A DNA stretch of 64,000 nucleotides from contig CP006833.1 of NCBI GenBank assembly GCA_000495505.1, forward strand, positions 1,054,001 through 1,118,000, in the 5' to 3' direction. Under the pieces are notes generated by a model. The model made no database searches and was not told where the DNA came from. It was given only the letters and a program-made list of their open reading frames with translations. Positions within the stretch are counted from its first letter, which is position 1. Each line of letters begins with the position of its first letter. Made by a program: the position numbers and the translations under genes. Source of the stretch: Campylobacter fetus subsp. testudinum 03-427 (lineage in GTDB: Bacteria; Campylobacterota; Campylobacteria; Campylobacterales; Campylobacteraceae). Positions 26,350-32,969 of this stretch are shown one piece after another.

Positions 26350-26859
26350 ATGGCTGAAAATGTCTATAGTGATAGCATAAAAGATGGCGTAACGGTGATA
26401 GATGAAAGTCTATTTCAAAATTCTTTAAATATGCCTCAGGCGATAAATACAATCTTCAATGGAAGTATAATAGACGCTAAGCAAAACTACTCAAAAACTG
26501 TTCTAAAAACAAATAACGATATGATATATGATGATGAAGGGCTTATACATAGTGGATTTATATTTAGCGCAGCAGACTGGTCTGCTCAAGTAGCGGTAAA
26601 TCAACCTTTTAGTGTCACTATAGGCGCAAAAGTAAGCTTTTTTGCTCCGGCTAAAGTAGGAGATATCATAGAATTTGAAGCACATGCGTACTTTGATGAA
26701 TCAAAAAAACGAGAAATAAAAGTTATAGGAAAAATCAAAGAAATAAAAGTTTTTGAAGGAACTTTCCAAATAGTAGTTTTAGAAGATCATATATTTAAAC
26801 TTCAGAAAAAAAGCAAAGAAAAACAAAATGAACAAGCAGCTCAAAAAGCTGCTAAATAG
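26350..26859 (+). CDS. Hotdog-fold protein, Cj0977-like
   Basis: A 169-residue cytoplasmic protein. It resembles C. jejuni Cj0977, a hotdog-fold protein controlled by flagellar sigma-28 and needed for invasion though not for motility; cmoB (Cj0976) precedes that gene too. Seen: a central segment LIHSGFIFSAADWSAQVAVN (hotdog helix) and VSFFAPAKVGDIIEFEAHA (strand region), and a charged, Lys/Gln-rich tail. A catalytic acyl-CoA residue is not evident. I did not find a convincing sigma-28 promoter in the 11-bp gap. Its stop overlaps the convergent MBL gene by 8 bases. Confidence 0.82.
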   Translation: MAENVYSDSIKDGVTVIDESLFQNSLNMPQAINTIFNGSIIDAKQNYSKTVLKTNNDMIYDDEGLIHSGFIFSAADWSAQVAVNQPFSVTIGAKVSFFAPAKVGDIIEFEAHAYFDESKKREIKVIGKIKEIKVFEGTFQIVVLEDHIFKLQKKSKEKQNEQAAQKAAK

Positions 26860-27532: not shown

Positions 27533-28279
27533 ATGAAAGATTTTAAATTTTTAGAAAATAAATTATTATGCTTTTTAGATAAATATCTAAAACAATCTGG
27601 GGCTAGTGGATTTAGTATAGGAGTAAGCGGCGGACTTGACTCTGCCATAGTCGCTACTTTATGTTCAAAAGTAGCCAAAACTCACGCTCTTTTAATGCCT
27701 ACAAATAGTTCAAATAATCTAAATTTAGAAGATGGTTTAATCCTATGCGAAAAGCTTGATTTAGAGTATGAAGTTATAAATATAGAACCGATCTTACAAA
27801 GCTTTATGTCTGTTTTAGATACTACAAACAAACTAAGAAAAGCCAATATAATAGCAAGAGTTAGAATGATACTGCTATACGACAACTCAGCTAAACTAGG
27901 TACATTAGTAGTAGGAACAAGCAATAAAAGCGAGAGGCTACTAGGCTATGGAACTATATATGGAGATACTGCTTGCGCACTAAATCCTATCGGGGATATT
28001 TATAAAAGTGACCTATTTTTGTTTGCGAAATACTTAGAAATAGACGAAAACATAATAAACAAAGCCCCAAGCGCAGATCTTTGGGAAGGTCAAAAAGACG
28101 AAGATGAGATAGGTTTTGCTTATTCTATCGTCGATGCCGTGTTAAAAGAATTTGAAAAAACGTCTCAAAGAGAGAATTTATACGCTATTTTTGATAGAAA
28201 TTTAGTAGATAGCGTACTTAATAGAGTAGAAAAAAATAGCTTTAAGCTAAATCCGGTACCGATTGCAAATATCAGTTAA
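27533..28279 (+). CDS. nadE: NAD synthetase, ammonia-dependent
   Basis: Last step of NAD synthesis: amidation of nicotinate adenine dinucleotide with ATP and ammonia. Seen: 248 residues, the short NH3-dependent type, with the pyrophosphatase loop GVSGGLDSA, LLMPTNSS, and the later VVGTSNKSERLLGYGTIYGD that binds the substrate. No glutaminase domain is present. It is divergent from the MBL gene and starts a long run of genes on the plus strand ending at 33700, with gaps of 25 bp or less. Confidence 0.95.
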   Translation: MKDFKFLENKLLCFLDKYLKQSGASGFSIGVSGGLDSAIVATLCSKVAKTHALLMPTNSSNNLNLEDGLILCEKLDLEYEVINIEPILQSFMSVLDTTNKLRKANIIARVRMILLYDNSAKLGTLVVGTSNKSERLLGYGTIYGDTACALNPIGDIYKSDLFLFAKYLEIDENIINKAPSADLWEGQKDEDEIGFAYSIVDAVLKEFEKTSQRENLYAIFDRNLVDSVLNRVEKNSFKLNPVPIANIS

Positions 28280-28291
28280 AAAAGGATAAAG

Positions 28292-29425
28292 ATGAGAGAT
28301 ATAGCATTTTTTAGACCATACATTACCGAAAGAGAACATGAATTAGTAAAAGAGAGTCTTGATAAAAACGCCGTTTATATGGTGACAAATTTAGAAGATA
28401 AGATAAAGAAGTATTTCGGAGTAAAACACGTCATAACTACAAATAACGGAACCGCAGCAAATCATTTAGCACTTTGTGCTATGGATCTTAAAAGAGGAGA
28501 TAAGATAATTTGCTCGGTAAATGCTTTTCCTAGCATAGCTCAAGTCATTCGTCATTTTGATGCTGAGCCGATATTTGTGGATATAGATGAAGATGATTTT
28601 AACATAAGTCCAGTTGAGCTAGAAAAAGTATTAAAAGAGCAAAAACATAAAAAACTAAAGGCTGCTTTCGTAACTCACGTCGCAGGACAAAGTGCGGATA
28701 TGGACACTATATATGCTTTAGCAAAAGAAAACGGTATAAAAATCATAGATGATGCTAGTCGCGCTATGGGCGCTACATATAAAGGCAAACTTATAGGAAA
28801 TTTAGACTCATATATGTCTTGCTTTCAGATAAATCCTCAAGTACAGCACGCCATTGCATCAACTGGTATTATATTAACAAATGATGATGAAATGGCAAAA
28901 CGCGCCAGACTCATAAGAAATCACGCAATAGTAAATGACAGCTTTGATAAAGATGGAAACTTAGGATACGTTTATGACGTAGTAGATATAGGACAAAAAT
29001 ATGATTTAAACTCTCTTTGCGCTGCTTTTAGTATAGCTCAATTTGAGAAACTAGAGATGTTTATAAGAAGACGCAAAGAGATAGCAGCGATATATAATGA
29101 AGAGTTAAAAGCATGCCCTCATATAACTACTCCTGTTATAAAAAGAGATCATGTATATAATCAATACATAATAAAAGTAGATAAAAACAGAGATGGTTTT
29201 GCAAGAGAGCTAAAAGATGCGGGAATTCATACAGGTCTTCACTACATACCACTTCATCTGCTAAGCTATTACAAAACAAAATACAATCTTAGGGTAAATG
29301 ATTTCCCAAAAGCATTAAAAGTATATCAACAAGTACTATCTTTGCCTATCTATGCCGCTATGAGTAATGATGAAGTAAAATATGTCTGCGATACAATAAA
29401 ATCAGTAGCAAAAACTCGTGTTTGA
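28292..29425 (+). CDS. DegT/DnrJ/EryC1-family protein lacking the PLP lysine
   Basis: A 377-residue protein with the fold-type I sugar aminotransferase layout: NNGTAANHLAL (phosphate site), IIDDASRAMGA (D154, the PLP nitrogen ligand), and the C-terminal YIPLHLLSYY and VLSLPIYAAMS. The Schiff-base lysine should follow the SF-type segment, but C177 to T191 reads CFQINPQVQHAIAST and there is no lysine from 167 to 202. H186 lies in this loop; the related dehydratase ColD uses histidine there. So it may be a dehydratase, a non-catalytic homologue, or act with an unusual mechanism. It sits between nadE and lpxK, and lpxK starts within its last codons. A role in lipid A or Kdo chemistry is only inferred. 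Confidence 0.8.
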   Translation: MRDIAFFRPYITEREHELVKESLDKNAVYMVTNLEDKIKKYFGVKHVITTNNGTAANHLALCAMDLKRGDKIICSVNAFPSIAQVIRHFDAEPIFVDIDEDDFNISPVELEKVLKEQKHKKLKAAFVTHVAGQSADMDTIYALAKENGIKIIDDASRAMGATYKGKLIGNLDSYMSCFQINPQVQHAIASTGIILTNDDEMAKRARLIRNHAIVNDSFDKDGNLGYVYDVVDIGQKYDLNSLCAAFSIAQFEKLEMFIRRRKEIAAIYNEELKACPHITTPVIKRDHVYNQYIIKVDKNRDGFARELKDAGIHTGLHYIPLHLLSYYKTKYNLRVNDFPKALKVYQQVLSLPIYAAMSNDEVKYVCDTIKSVAKTRV

Positions 29426-30362
29426 GAGAAAACTGCATAGCTGGATAAATAGATATTTCTATCGTCCAAGGTATCTTGAAACGCTAATTTCTATGGTTTT
29501 AAGCCCACTAGCTTTGATATATTATGTTTTAGTAGTTATCAAATTTAAACTCTCAAAACAGATTAAATTTGATATACCTATAATAAGCATTGGAAATTTA
29601 ATAGTCGGTGGCACGGGCAAAACTCCACTTACAAAAGCTATTTTTAATCAATACAATACCAAATTTAGAACTTTTATCATATCAAGAGGATATAAAAGAA
29701 GTAGCAAAGGTATGCTAAAAGTCTGCATAGACGGTGAGATACTATGCAGCGTAGATGAGAGCGGCGATGAAGCTATGGAGTATGCGCTCAGTCTTAAAAA
29801 TGCAAACATCATAGTAAGCGAAAATAGAAAATTAGCCATTAATGAAGCGATAAAATGCGGCGCAGAGCTTGTTTTGCTTGATGATGGATTTGGAAAGTTT
29901 GATATTTTTAAATTTAATATTATTTTAAAACCCGCTATAGAACCTGTTTTTAACCTAGTTTTGCCTAGCGGAGCGTATAGATATCCAAAAAGTTTTTATA
30001 ATTTTGCGGATTTCATTCCAACAAAAGACGATATAATAAGCTCTAATCACATAATAAACAAAACAACAAATATGGTTTTAGTAACAGCCATTGCAAATCC
30101 GCTAAGGCTAAAAAATATATTTGATAACTGTCTTGGCGTGGAGCTGTTTGAGGATCATCACAAATTTACAAAATCCGAAATAGAAAATATATTTAAAAAA
30201 TGGAATACAACAACTATTTTGGTGACTCAAAAAGATTATGTTAAAATACGAGATTTCGGCTTTAATGTTTCGATTTTAGAACTGCATACCGAAATTTCAT
30301 CTCAATTCAAGCTAAAATTAGATGAGTTTATAGATAATTACAAACAAAATATGATAAAATAA
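29418..30362 (+). CDS. lpxK: Tetraacyldisaccharide 4'-kinase
   Basis: Phosphorylates the lipid A disaccharide precursor at the 4' position on the cytoplasmic face of the inner membrane. Seen: 314 residues, an N-terminal membrane segment (about 20-43), the P-loop GNLIVGGTGKTP, ISRGYKR, and LLDDGFGKFDI. The start is GTG at 29418, overlapping the DegT gene by 8 bases. It is followed by argB, and the order lpxK-thrC-kdsB is otherwise as in C. jejuni. Confidence 0.93.
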   Translation: MFERKLHSWINRYFYRPRYLETLISMVLSPLALIYYVLVVIKFKLSKQIKFDIPIISIGNLIVGGTGKTPLTKAIFNQYNTKFRTFIISRGYKRSSKGMLKVCIDGEILCSVDESGDEAMEYALSLKNANIIVSENRKLAINEAIKCGAELVLLDDGFGKFDIFKFNIILKPAIEPVFNLVLPSGAYRYPKSFYNFADFIPTKDDIISSNHIINKTTNMVLVTAIANPLRLKNIFDNCLGVELFEDHHKFTKSEIENIFKKWNTTTILVTQKDYVKIRDFGFNVSILELHTEISSQFKLKLDEFIDNYKQNMIK

Positions 30363-30387: not shown

Positions 30388-31230
30388 GTGTTAAAAAGCA
30401 TAAGAACAGCTGAGATAATATTAAGCGCCCTACCTTATATCCAGAAATTTAGAGATGAAATTTTTGTTATAAAATACGGTGGCGCAGCTCAAATAGATGA
30501 AAATTTAAAAAATAATTTTGCAAGAGATATTGTGCTTTTACAACTAGTAGGCATTAAAGTCGTCATCGTACATGGAGGCGGAAAAAAGATAAATTCATTT
30601 TTAGAAAGACTAAATTTAAAAAGTGAATTTATAGATGGTTTAAGAGTCACAGACAAAGATACTATGGAAGTAGTAGAAATGACCTTAAGCGGACTTATAA
30701 ATAAAGAAATAACAAGTCTTTTAAACAAGCACGGCGCAAGAGCTATTGGTGTAAGCGGTAAAGATGACAATATGTTAAGGGCAAAAAGCTTAGATAATGG
30801 AAAGTACGGATTTGTAGGAGAGATAACAGACGTCAATGAAAATGTCATATCAACCATAATAAACGACGGACTCATACCAGTCATCGCACCTATTGCCATA
30901 GGAAGCGAGTATGAAACATATAACATAAACGCAGATCTTTGCGCAAGTGCTATAGCTAGTAAATTAAAAGCTAGAAAAGTTATATTTTTAAGCGATATTA
31001 AGGGGGTGTTAGATCAAGATGAAAAACTTATCAGCAAGCTAAACGAAGCTTCTATAAATGGGTTAAAAGATAGTGGAGTGATCAGCGGCGGAATGATACC
31101 AAAAATAGATGCTTGCTTAGAATGTGTAAAAAGTGGAGTCGGTGCAGCACATATAATAGACGGAAAAATTCCTCACTCTTTGCTGCTGGAAATATTTACA
31201 GATGAAGGTATAGGGAGCGTTATAAAATGA
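30388..31230 (+). CDS. argB: Acetylglutamate kinase
   Basis: Second step of arginine synthesis: ATP-dependent phosphorylation of N-acetylglutamate. Seen: 280 residues with VIKYGGAAQ and VIVHGGGKKIN (nucleotide and substrate loops), ADLCASAIASKL, and GGMIPKIDACL near the end. The start is GTG at 30388, preceded by TAAGGAAA. Its stop overlaps the next start (ATGA). No other arg gene is in the window, and its place in the lpxK-thrC-kdsB run, where C. jejuni (as I recall) has none, suggests rearrangement. Confidence 0.94.
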   Translation: MLKSIRTAEIILSALPYIQKFRDEIFVIKYGGAAQIDENLKNNFARDIVLLQLVGIKVVIVHGGGKKINSFLERLNLKSEFIDGLRVTDKDTMEVVEMTLSGLINKEITSLLNKHGARAIGVSGKDDNMLRAKSLDNGKYGFVGEITDVNENVISTIINDGLIPVIAPIAIGSEYETYNINADLCASAIASKLKARKVIFLSDIKGVLDQDEKLISKLNEASINGLKDSGVISGGMIPKIDACLECVKSGVGAAHIIDGKIPHSLLLEIFTDEGIGSVIK

Positions 31231-32969
31231 TAGTATTAAGTACAACACCAGATGAGAAAACAGCACATAAGTTAGCCAAAGAGTTAGTAGATAAAAAAGC
31301 TGCTGCTTGCGTGAATTTTATAAAAGATATGAAAAGTTTTTATACTTGGAAAAGCAGAGTACAAAATGATTCTGAAGTTCTTATGATGATAAAAGGAAAT
31401 TATAAAAAAATAAAAGATGTTATTTTAAAAAATCACCCTTATGAAATACCAGAAGTCATAGCCATAAAACCTAAAAAAATAGAAAAAAGCTATAGAAAAT
31501 GGTTAGAAAAAAGTACAAAAACATCGCCTATGTTAGTAGGTACAAGGCTAAATAGCGGTGAAGAAGCTTCTTGTGTTAGTTTAAGCGAAGCTCTATTGCA
31601 ACCAGCAGCGAAGCATGGCGGACTTTACGCGCCTATAAATTTACCTATTTTAGATGATAACTTTTTCAAAAAGGCATACAAATTAAAGTATGATGAGATA
31701 GCTATGATGATCATTAAAAAGTTTAAATTTGATATAGACAAAGATATTTTTAAAAAAGCATTAAAAAGATATGCTAAATTTGATAAAGAAGCAGTGGAGA
31801 TAAAAAAATTAAATAAAAATTTATATATAAATGAACTATGGCACGGACCTACAAGAGCATTCAAAGATATGGCGCTTCAGCCTTTTGGTGCAGTTTTAAA
31901 AGAGCTTGCTAAACAAAATAATAAAAAATATCTCATTATGTGTGCAACAAGCGGCGATACTGGACCTGCGACACTTAACACATTTAGCGACGTTCAAAAT
32001 ATAAAAGTCGTATGCATATATCCAAAAGACGGCACAAGCGAAGTTCAACGCTTACAAATGGTAAATCAAAAAGGTGCAAATTTAAAATCCATAGGCATAA
32101 AAGGTAACTTTGATGATGCTCAAAAAGCTTTAAAAACGCTATTAAACGATAAATCTTTTAAAAACGAACTATCAAATTTAGGGCTTAATTTAAGTGCTGC
32201 AAATTCTGTGAATTTTGGAAGAATTTTATTTCAGATTATTTATCATATCTATGTTTGTATAAAAATAAATAGCAATAAAAAGCCGATAGATATCGTTGTT
32301 CCAAGTGGTAATTTCGGTAATGCTTTAGGGGCGTATTACGCTAAAAAAATGGGTGCAAACATAGGAAAAATAAAAATCGCTTCAAACGCAAATAATATCC
32401 TAACAGAACTTTTCACAACAGGAATTTATGACCTACAAAATAAAAAATTGATTCAAACCATAAGCCCTGCGATGGATATACTAATTAGCTCAAATGTTGA
32501 AAGACTTCTATTTGATAAGTTTGGAAGCATCAGAACAAAAGAGCTTATGGATAGTTTGAAAAGCAGTGGATTATATAAACTAACTAAAGAAGAGCTTGAT
32601 GAGCTAAAAGCTGACTTTGAAGCTGACTTTTGTAGCGATGAAGAGTGTGAAAATTATATAAAAAACGTTTCAAGCAAAGGTATTTTGATAGATCCACATA
32701 CAGCAACTTGCCTAAAACTAGTTGATAATGATAAACTTAGCGTGATAACATCTACAGCTCAATGGGTGAAATTTACTCCAAGTATGATAAAAGCTATCAA
32801 AAATAGACCTACAAAAGATGAATTAGCCGACATGAAAGAGCTTGCAAAAGAGTTTAATGTAAAAATTCCAAAATCTATCTTAGAGTTATTTTCACAAAAA
32901 GAACTTCATAAAGAGATTATAGAACAAGATAAGATAAAATCAAACATTATAAATTGGCTTAAAAAATGA
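31227..32969 (+). CDS. thrC: Fusion of CutA1-like domain and threonine synthase
   Basis: A 580-residue protein. Residues 1-98 are a nearly full CutA1 domain (VLSTTPDEKTAHKLAKELV, KKAAACVN, YTWKSRVQNDSEV, NHPYEIPEVIAI). Residues from about 102 are a complete threonine synthase: the usual start (VSLSEALLQPAAKHGGLYAP), GPTRAFKDMAL with the PLP lysine, and SGDTGPATLNTF. ThrC converts O-phosphohomoserine to threonine. There is no stop or ribosome site between the parts; the internal ATG at 31530 lacks one. CutA1 trimers bind metals or small effectors, so the domain may oligomerise or regulate ThrC. ATGA overlap with argB, and with kdsB at the end. Confidence 0.92.
   Translation: MIVLSTTPDEKTAHKLAKELVDKKAAACVNFIKDMKSFYTWKSRVQNDSEVLMMIKGNYKKIKDVILKNHPYEIPEVIAIKPKKIEKSYRKWLEKSTKTSPMLVGTRLNSGEEASCVSLSEALLQPAAKHGGLYAPINLPILDDNFFKKAYKLKYDEIAMMIIKKFKFDIDKDIFKKALKRYAKFDKEAVEIKKLNKNLYINELWHGPTRAFKDMALQPFGAVLKELAKQNNKKYLIMCATSGDTGPATLNTFSDVQNIKVVCIYPKDGTSEVQRLQMVNQKGANLKSIGIKGNFDDAQKALKTLLNDKSFKNELSNLGLNLSAANSVNFGRILFQIIYHIYVCIKINSNKKPIDIVVPSGNFGNALGAYYAKKMGANIGKIKIASNANNILTELFTTGIYDLQNKKLIQTISPAMDILISSNVERLLFDKFGSIRTKELMDSLKSSGLYKLTKEELDELKADFEADFCSDEECENYIKNVSSKGILIDPHTATCLKLVDNDKLSVITSTAQWVKFTPSMIKAIKNRPTKDELADMKELAKEFNVKIPKSILELFSQKELHKEIIEQDKIKSNIINWLKK

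Follow-up and report, generated by a model that had tools for sequence, protein, structure and literature searches.

The gene lying between nadE and lpxK in Campylobacter fetus subsp. testudinum 03-427, here named DegT', encodes a DegT-fold protein without the Schiff-base lysine of its family, and its status as a pseudoenzyme is well supported by sequence: the catalytic residue is lost, the gene is under purifying selection, and it has been retained in the lineage. We tentatively propose, with nearly an even chance of being correct, that DegT' is an ancient pseudo-aminotransferase that now has a non-PLP role, accessory or regulatory, in the LpxK (lipid A 4'-kinase) step, a function suggested by gene linkage. 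No description of this protein was found in the literature searched.

The window analyzed here is a stretch of 64,000 nucleotides of contig CP006833.1, in which an intact open reading frame at positions 28292–29425 (+ strand) encodes the 377-residue DegT'; Pfam PF01041 (DegT/DnrJ/EryC1/StrS) matches residues 11–369 with E = 1.2e-89. Upstream lies nadE (27533–28279, +; PF02540, 2.6e-70), separated by a 12 bp gap, and downstream the tetraacyldisaccharide 4'-kinase gene lpxK (29418–30362, +; PF02606, 3.7e-43), whose GTG start overlaps the 3' end of DegT' by 8 bp. kdsB is located ~3.5 kb downstream of DegT', in agreement with the gene order given by the first-pass annotation. Elsewhere on this strand of the window, a CutA1 domain (2e-28, residues 2–95) is fused in frame to threonine synthase (Thr_synth_N, PALP) at 31227–32969; in several relatives (e.g., L019 and L020) the two parts are matched by two separate ORFs. 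The 169-aa protein encoded at 26350–26859 (+) appeared hotdog thioesterase-like by eye and had no Pfam match at 1e-5.

The AlphaFold2 model of DegT' (pLDDT 93) predicts with confidence a fold of the ArnB/PseC type, these two being the closest PDB structures with a TM of about 0.9. The resemblance includes the length, the pyridine-nitrogen Asp, and the small-domain 'HYIP.H...YYK' region; in contrast, DegT' lacks the Schiff-base lysine, the phosphate serine, the His/Gln at 157, and the partner-subunit Asn/Arg. Comparison with known members by phmmer gave 2.5e-45 for ArnB, 1.9e-22 for KdnA, and about 1e-13 for ColD, and DegT' missed the cut-off of the PseC equivalog TIGR03588 (277 vs 423.5 bits). 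Three further DegT proteins are encoded in the same genome, all with the lysine.

An alignment with active members, which contained no gap at this site, placed V184 (codon at 28841–28843, +) in the Schiff-base lysine column, the segment Q179-I-N-P-Q-V184-Q-H186-A-I-A-S-T-G192 lying over SFHxxK...EGG of the active enzymes. The earlier observation that no lysine occurs from residue 167 to 202 held true. Residues were counted in 83 non-redundant orthologs and 24 non-redundant lysine-bearing paralogs; lysine occupies the column in 24/24 of the paralogs and is missing from 79/83 of the orthologs, where L, M, V, T, F, G, S, I, A, and others were found, Lys in four cases and His in none. Invariant in the active paralogs, column 184 ranks with the most variable in the DegT' clade (entropy rank 0.98 of 1), and judged from these alignments the loss of lysine is beyond chance. 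At column 185, 30/83 orthologs have a lysine, which is neither conserved nor present in the window protein. The four orthologs with Lys at column 184 (L084, L085, L086, and L109) are divergent and nested inside the lysine-less clade, and their lysine may reflect chance or partial reversion. Since an internal aldimine cannot form once the Schiff-base lysine is lost, DegT' very likely does not transaminate.

The first-pass annotation was mistaken in describing all the other landmarks of the family as present. The phosphate-binding serine of active members is replaced by Q179, the His/Gln in contact with O3' by R157, the Glu of EGG by S190, and the partner-subunit Asn/Arg ('NYR' pair) by K236 and D238, while neither the serine nor the Asn/Arg is conserved in the clade; the functions given to these columns are those established for ArnB and its relatives. 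Retained are G192 and the pyridine-nitrogen aspartate D154 (codon at 28751–28753, +), the latter correctly noted before and kept in 80/83 orthologs, as well as a mostly aromatic residue at position 79 of the orthologs. An active-site loop two residues longer than usual had also been described. Two extra residues relative to ArnB do exist, but they precede the strand (170–175) and are common to active PseC-like proteins, and the serine column lies 14 residues from G192 in DegT', equal to ArnB/PseC; the lengthening at the lysine was rejected as a misalignment.

Of 120 genomes sampled in the family, 85 contained an ortholog of DegT' (48–98% identity), and further orthologs were found across the order Campylobacterales; in the tree they form a single clade with full support, separate from the lysine-bearing DegT paralogs. 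A search across the phylum for a lysine-bearing, lpxK-linked ancestor found none, the sporadic Lys-184 cases being nested, and other phyla were covered by a short-peptide scan that detects close relatives only. The most similar of four lysine-bearing proteins compared was the L112-type DegT of Campylobacterales, which is 36% identical to DegT' and has the KRGD, FDA, and YYK.KY motifs in common with it; in contrast to DegT', enzymes of this type keep SFYATK and EGG and have no lpxK link. Whether they are the sister of the DegT' clade depends on root placement. The L112-type gene adjoins genes for a PseB-like 4,6-dehydratase and a sugar-phosphate transferase, and on this account the ancestor of DegT', in a tree whose root is not fixed, was probably a nucleotide-sugar aminotransferase. 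In two genomes of 99% completeness, G020 and G041, DegT' is the sole true member of the DegT family, which argues that it is independent of an active DegT partner. Neither PseC nor any other sugar aminotransferase of the DegT family was present in these two genomes.

Pairwise omega values were 0.03–0.10 for DegT', 0.07–0.21 for nadE, and 0.08–0.17 for lpxK, and DegT' had the lowest of the three in 9/9 pairs. At the nearest long locus (L034), DegT' was the best conserved of 10 neighboring proteins (82%, followed by argB at 79% and the others at 58–67%); at less closely related loci DegT' was surpassed by argB and sometimes by thrC, cmoB, or kdsB. The lysine was lost long ago, yet selection is stronger than on the neighbors, and DegT' therefore probably has a new job, one in the making of the outer membrane and most likely not that of an aminotransferase. 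Across the 83 orthologs, 40 positions are conserved at ≥95%, peaking at residues 67–93 (KRGDKIICSVN...RHFDAEP; codons at 28490–28570, +), the best conserved stretch of the clade. The conserved charged residues of the clade are K67, R68, R87, D90, E92, D229, D301, and K330, of which R87 and E92 are rare in paralogs. Loops 67–70 and 87–92 are predicted to adjoin at strand ends remote from the former cofactor pocket, assuming the strand order of fold type I, and could form a candidate binding surface. The motif at residues 67–93 is not a purely new feature, as it is partly present in L112-type enzymes.

The linkage of DegT' to lpxK was preserved in 76/77 testable non-redundant loci, that to nadE in 62/79 loci, and that to kdsB in 19/58 testable loci. 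Almost every family sampled retains the order nadE-DegT'-lpxK despite shuffling of the outer genes, and several lineages retain the DegT'-lpxK pair without an adjoining nadE. Overlap of DegT' with lpxK is common among orthologs, the commonest size being 8 bp. The only testable ortholog without an adjoining lpxK (L066, 5983–7104) still has nadE upstream. Among sampled genomes without DegT', to which the C. jejuni and H. pylori groups would belong judging from gene order and background knowledge, nadE is directly joined to lpxK in 15/18, indicating that the insertion of DegT' is specific and that the protein is not universally needed. Such junctions imply one of two histories for DegT': several clean losses, or a single gain within the order followed by loss in some groups. 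A mirror-tree test of DegT' against LpxK gave no special signal (partial r 0.26; 0.36 with nadE). Just upstream of nadE/DegT'-lpxK, several further families of Campylobacterales encode a DUF455 (PF04305) protein of about 270 aa (L083, 7209–8030; L087, 8383–9204; L104, 7460–8260; L111, 4728–5540).

The proximity of kdsB had led to a reading of DegT' in terms of Kdo and KdnA, which was rejected because kdsB is linked in so few loci compared with lpxK. KdnA, the 8-amino-Kdo aminotransferase (5k8b), has a DegT fold and carries a catalytic Lys; DegT' has V184 instead, is distant from KdnA in sequence, and does not conserve the kdsB link.

DegT' might still be an enzyme, one whose rebuilt site uses the conserved charged residues listed above for new chemistry independent of PLP, such as the modification of a lipid A or Kdo precursor. 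The number of highly conserved positions, including the paralog-rare charged residues R87 and E92, favors such activity; nevertheless, we consider it unlikely, as loops 67–70 and 87–92 lie opposite the old cofactor pocket according to predicted secondary structure, and the KRGD, FDA, and YYK.KY motifs, being found in lysine-bearing L112-type enzymes too, may be structural. Much less probable is a PMP-dependent dehydrase working without lysine in the manner of ColD, as had been suggested from H186. ColD and the E1/DdhC-type DegT dehydrases also lack the lysine; they have His at its position and keep the PMP site. H186 is indeed a loop residue in the window protein, and D154 and the mostly aromatic position 79 would suit such an enzyme, but H186 is two positions past the lysine column and occurs in 13/83 orthologs, the lysine column of the clade varies freely and is never His, the PMP-holding serine and partner-subunit residues are not conserved, and ColD is a distant relative. 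That DegT' is a pseudogene in decay has virtually no chance of being correct: the loop does vary between genera, with little change within a genus, which bears out in part an earlier concern about random decay in homologues, but the low omega values reveal strong purifying selection on the whole gene, reading frames are intact in the listed orthologs, and this reading is already refuted by selection.

Two further explanations turn on the identity of a partner. Catalytically dead paralogs kept by selection are known among PLP-fold proteins, where LCB1 and antizyme inhibitor serve their active paralogs, and DegT' could similarly be the dead subunit of an active DegT aminotransferase, like LCB1 with LCB2 in serine palmitoyltransferase. 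Active sites of DegT enzymes form at the dimer interface and most genomes encode further DegT proteins, but G020 and G041 have no other true DegT member, so an obligatory heteromer is unlikely and the idea as a whole improbable. In trypanosome deoxyhypusine synthase, too, a dead paralog activates its partner (PMC3663545). In all these examples the dead protein works on or together with its own active paralog, in contrast to DegT', which occurs in genomes without any. NadE, or NAD metabolism, would seem an equally improbable partner in place of LpxK; nadE adjoins DegT' at most loci and its distance-matrix correlation is slightly above that of LpxK, but DegT'-lpxK pairs persist in lineages without an adjoining nadE, and elsewhere nadE and lpxK are joined without DegT'.

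Among the readings offered by the first-pass annotation, a non-enzymatic role fits best and is contained in the one we prefer, in which DegT' assists or regulates the LpxK step. According to this proposal, an ArnB/PseC-type nucleotide-sugar aminotransferase would have been duplicated early in Campylobacterales, and the duplicate, having come to sit between nadE and lpxK, would have retained its fold but given up the PLP lysine along with the majority of cofactor contacts. Overlap of the genes would couple production of DegT' to that of LpxK, and DegT' might set the supply or activity of the kinase by binding either LpxK itself or a nucleotide-sugar or lipid A precursor. A more specific version is doubtful. 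In it DegT' detects a nucleotide-sugar or lipid A precursor and, acting as regulator or chaperone for 4'-phosphorylation of lipid A, governs LpxK across most Campylobacterales. Several observations speak against the proposal: the mirror-tree test gave no special DegT'-LpxK signal, the conservation of D154 could indicate a residual cofactor site, the retained lpxK linkage may be operon inertia, and Lys occurs at column 184 in four divergent orthologs.

Annotation based on family membership will label DegT' an aminotransferase, which is very likely wrong. The protein offers a clean bacterial case in which cofactor chemistry was lost, selection is stronger than on the adjoining essential genes, and the gene is tied to that of a lipid A enzyme. 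If DegT' acts on LpxK, it would reveal a point at which outer-membrane synthesis is controlled in species like Campylobacter fetus and their environmental relatives, and such control of LpxK would, if true, be a layer of LPS regulation without a known counterpart elsewhere.
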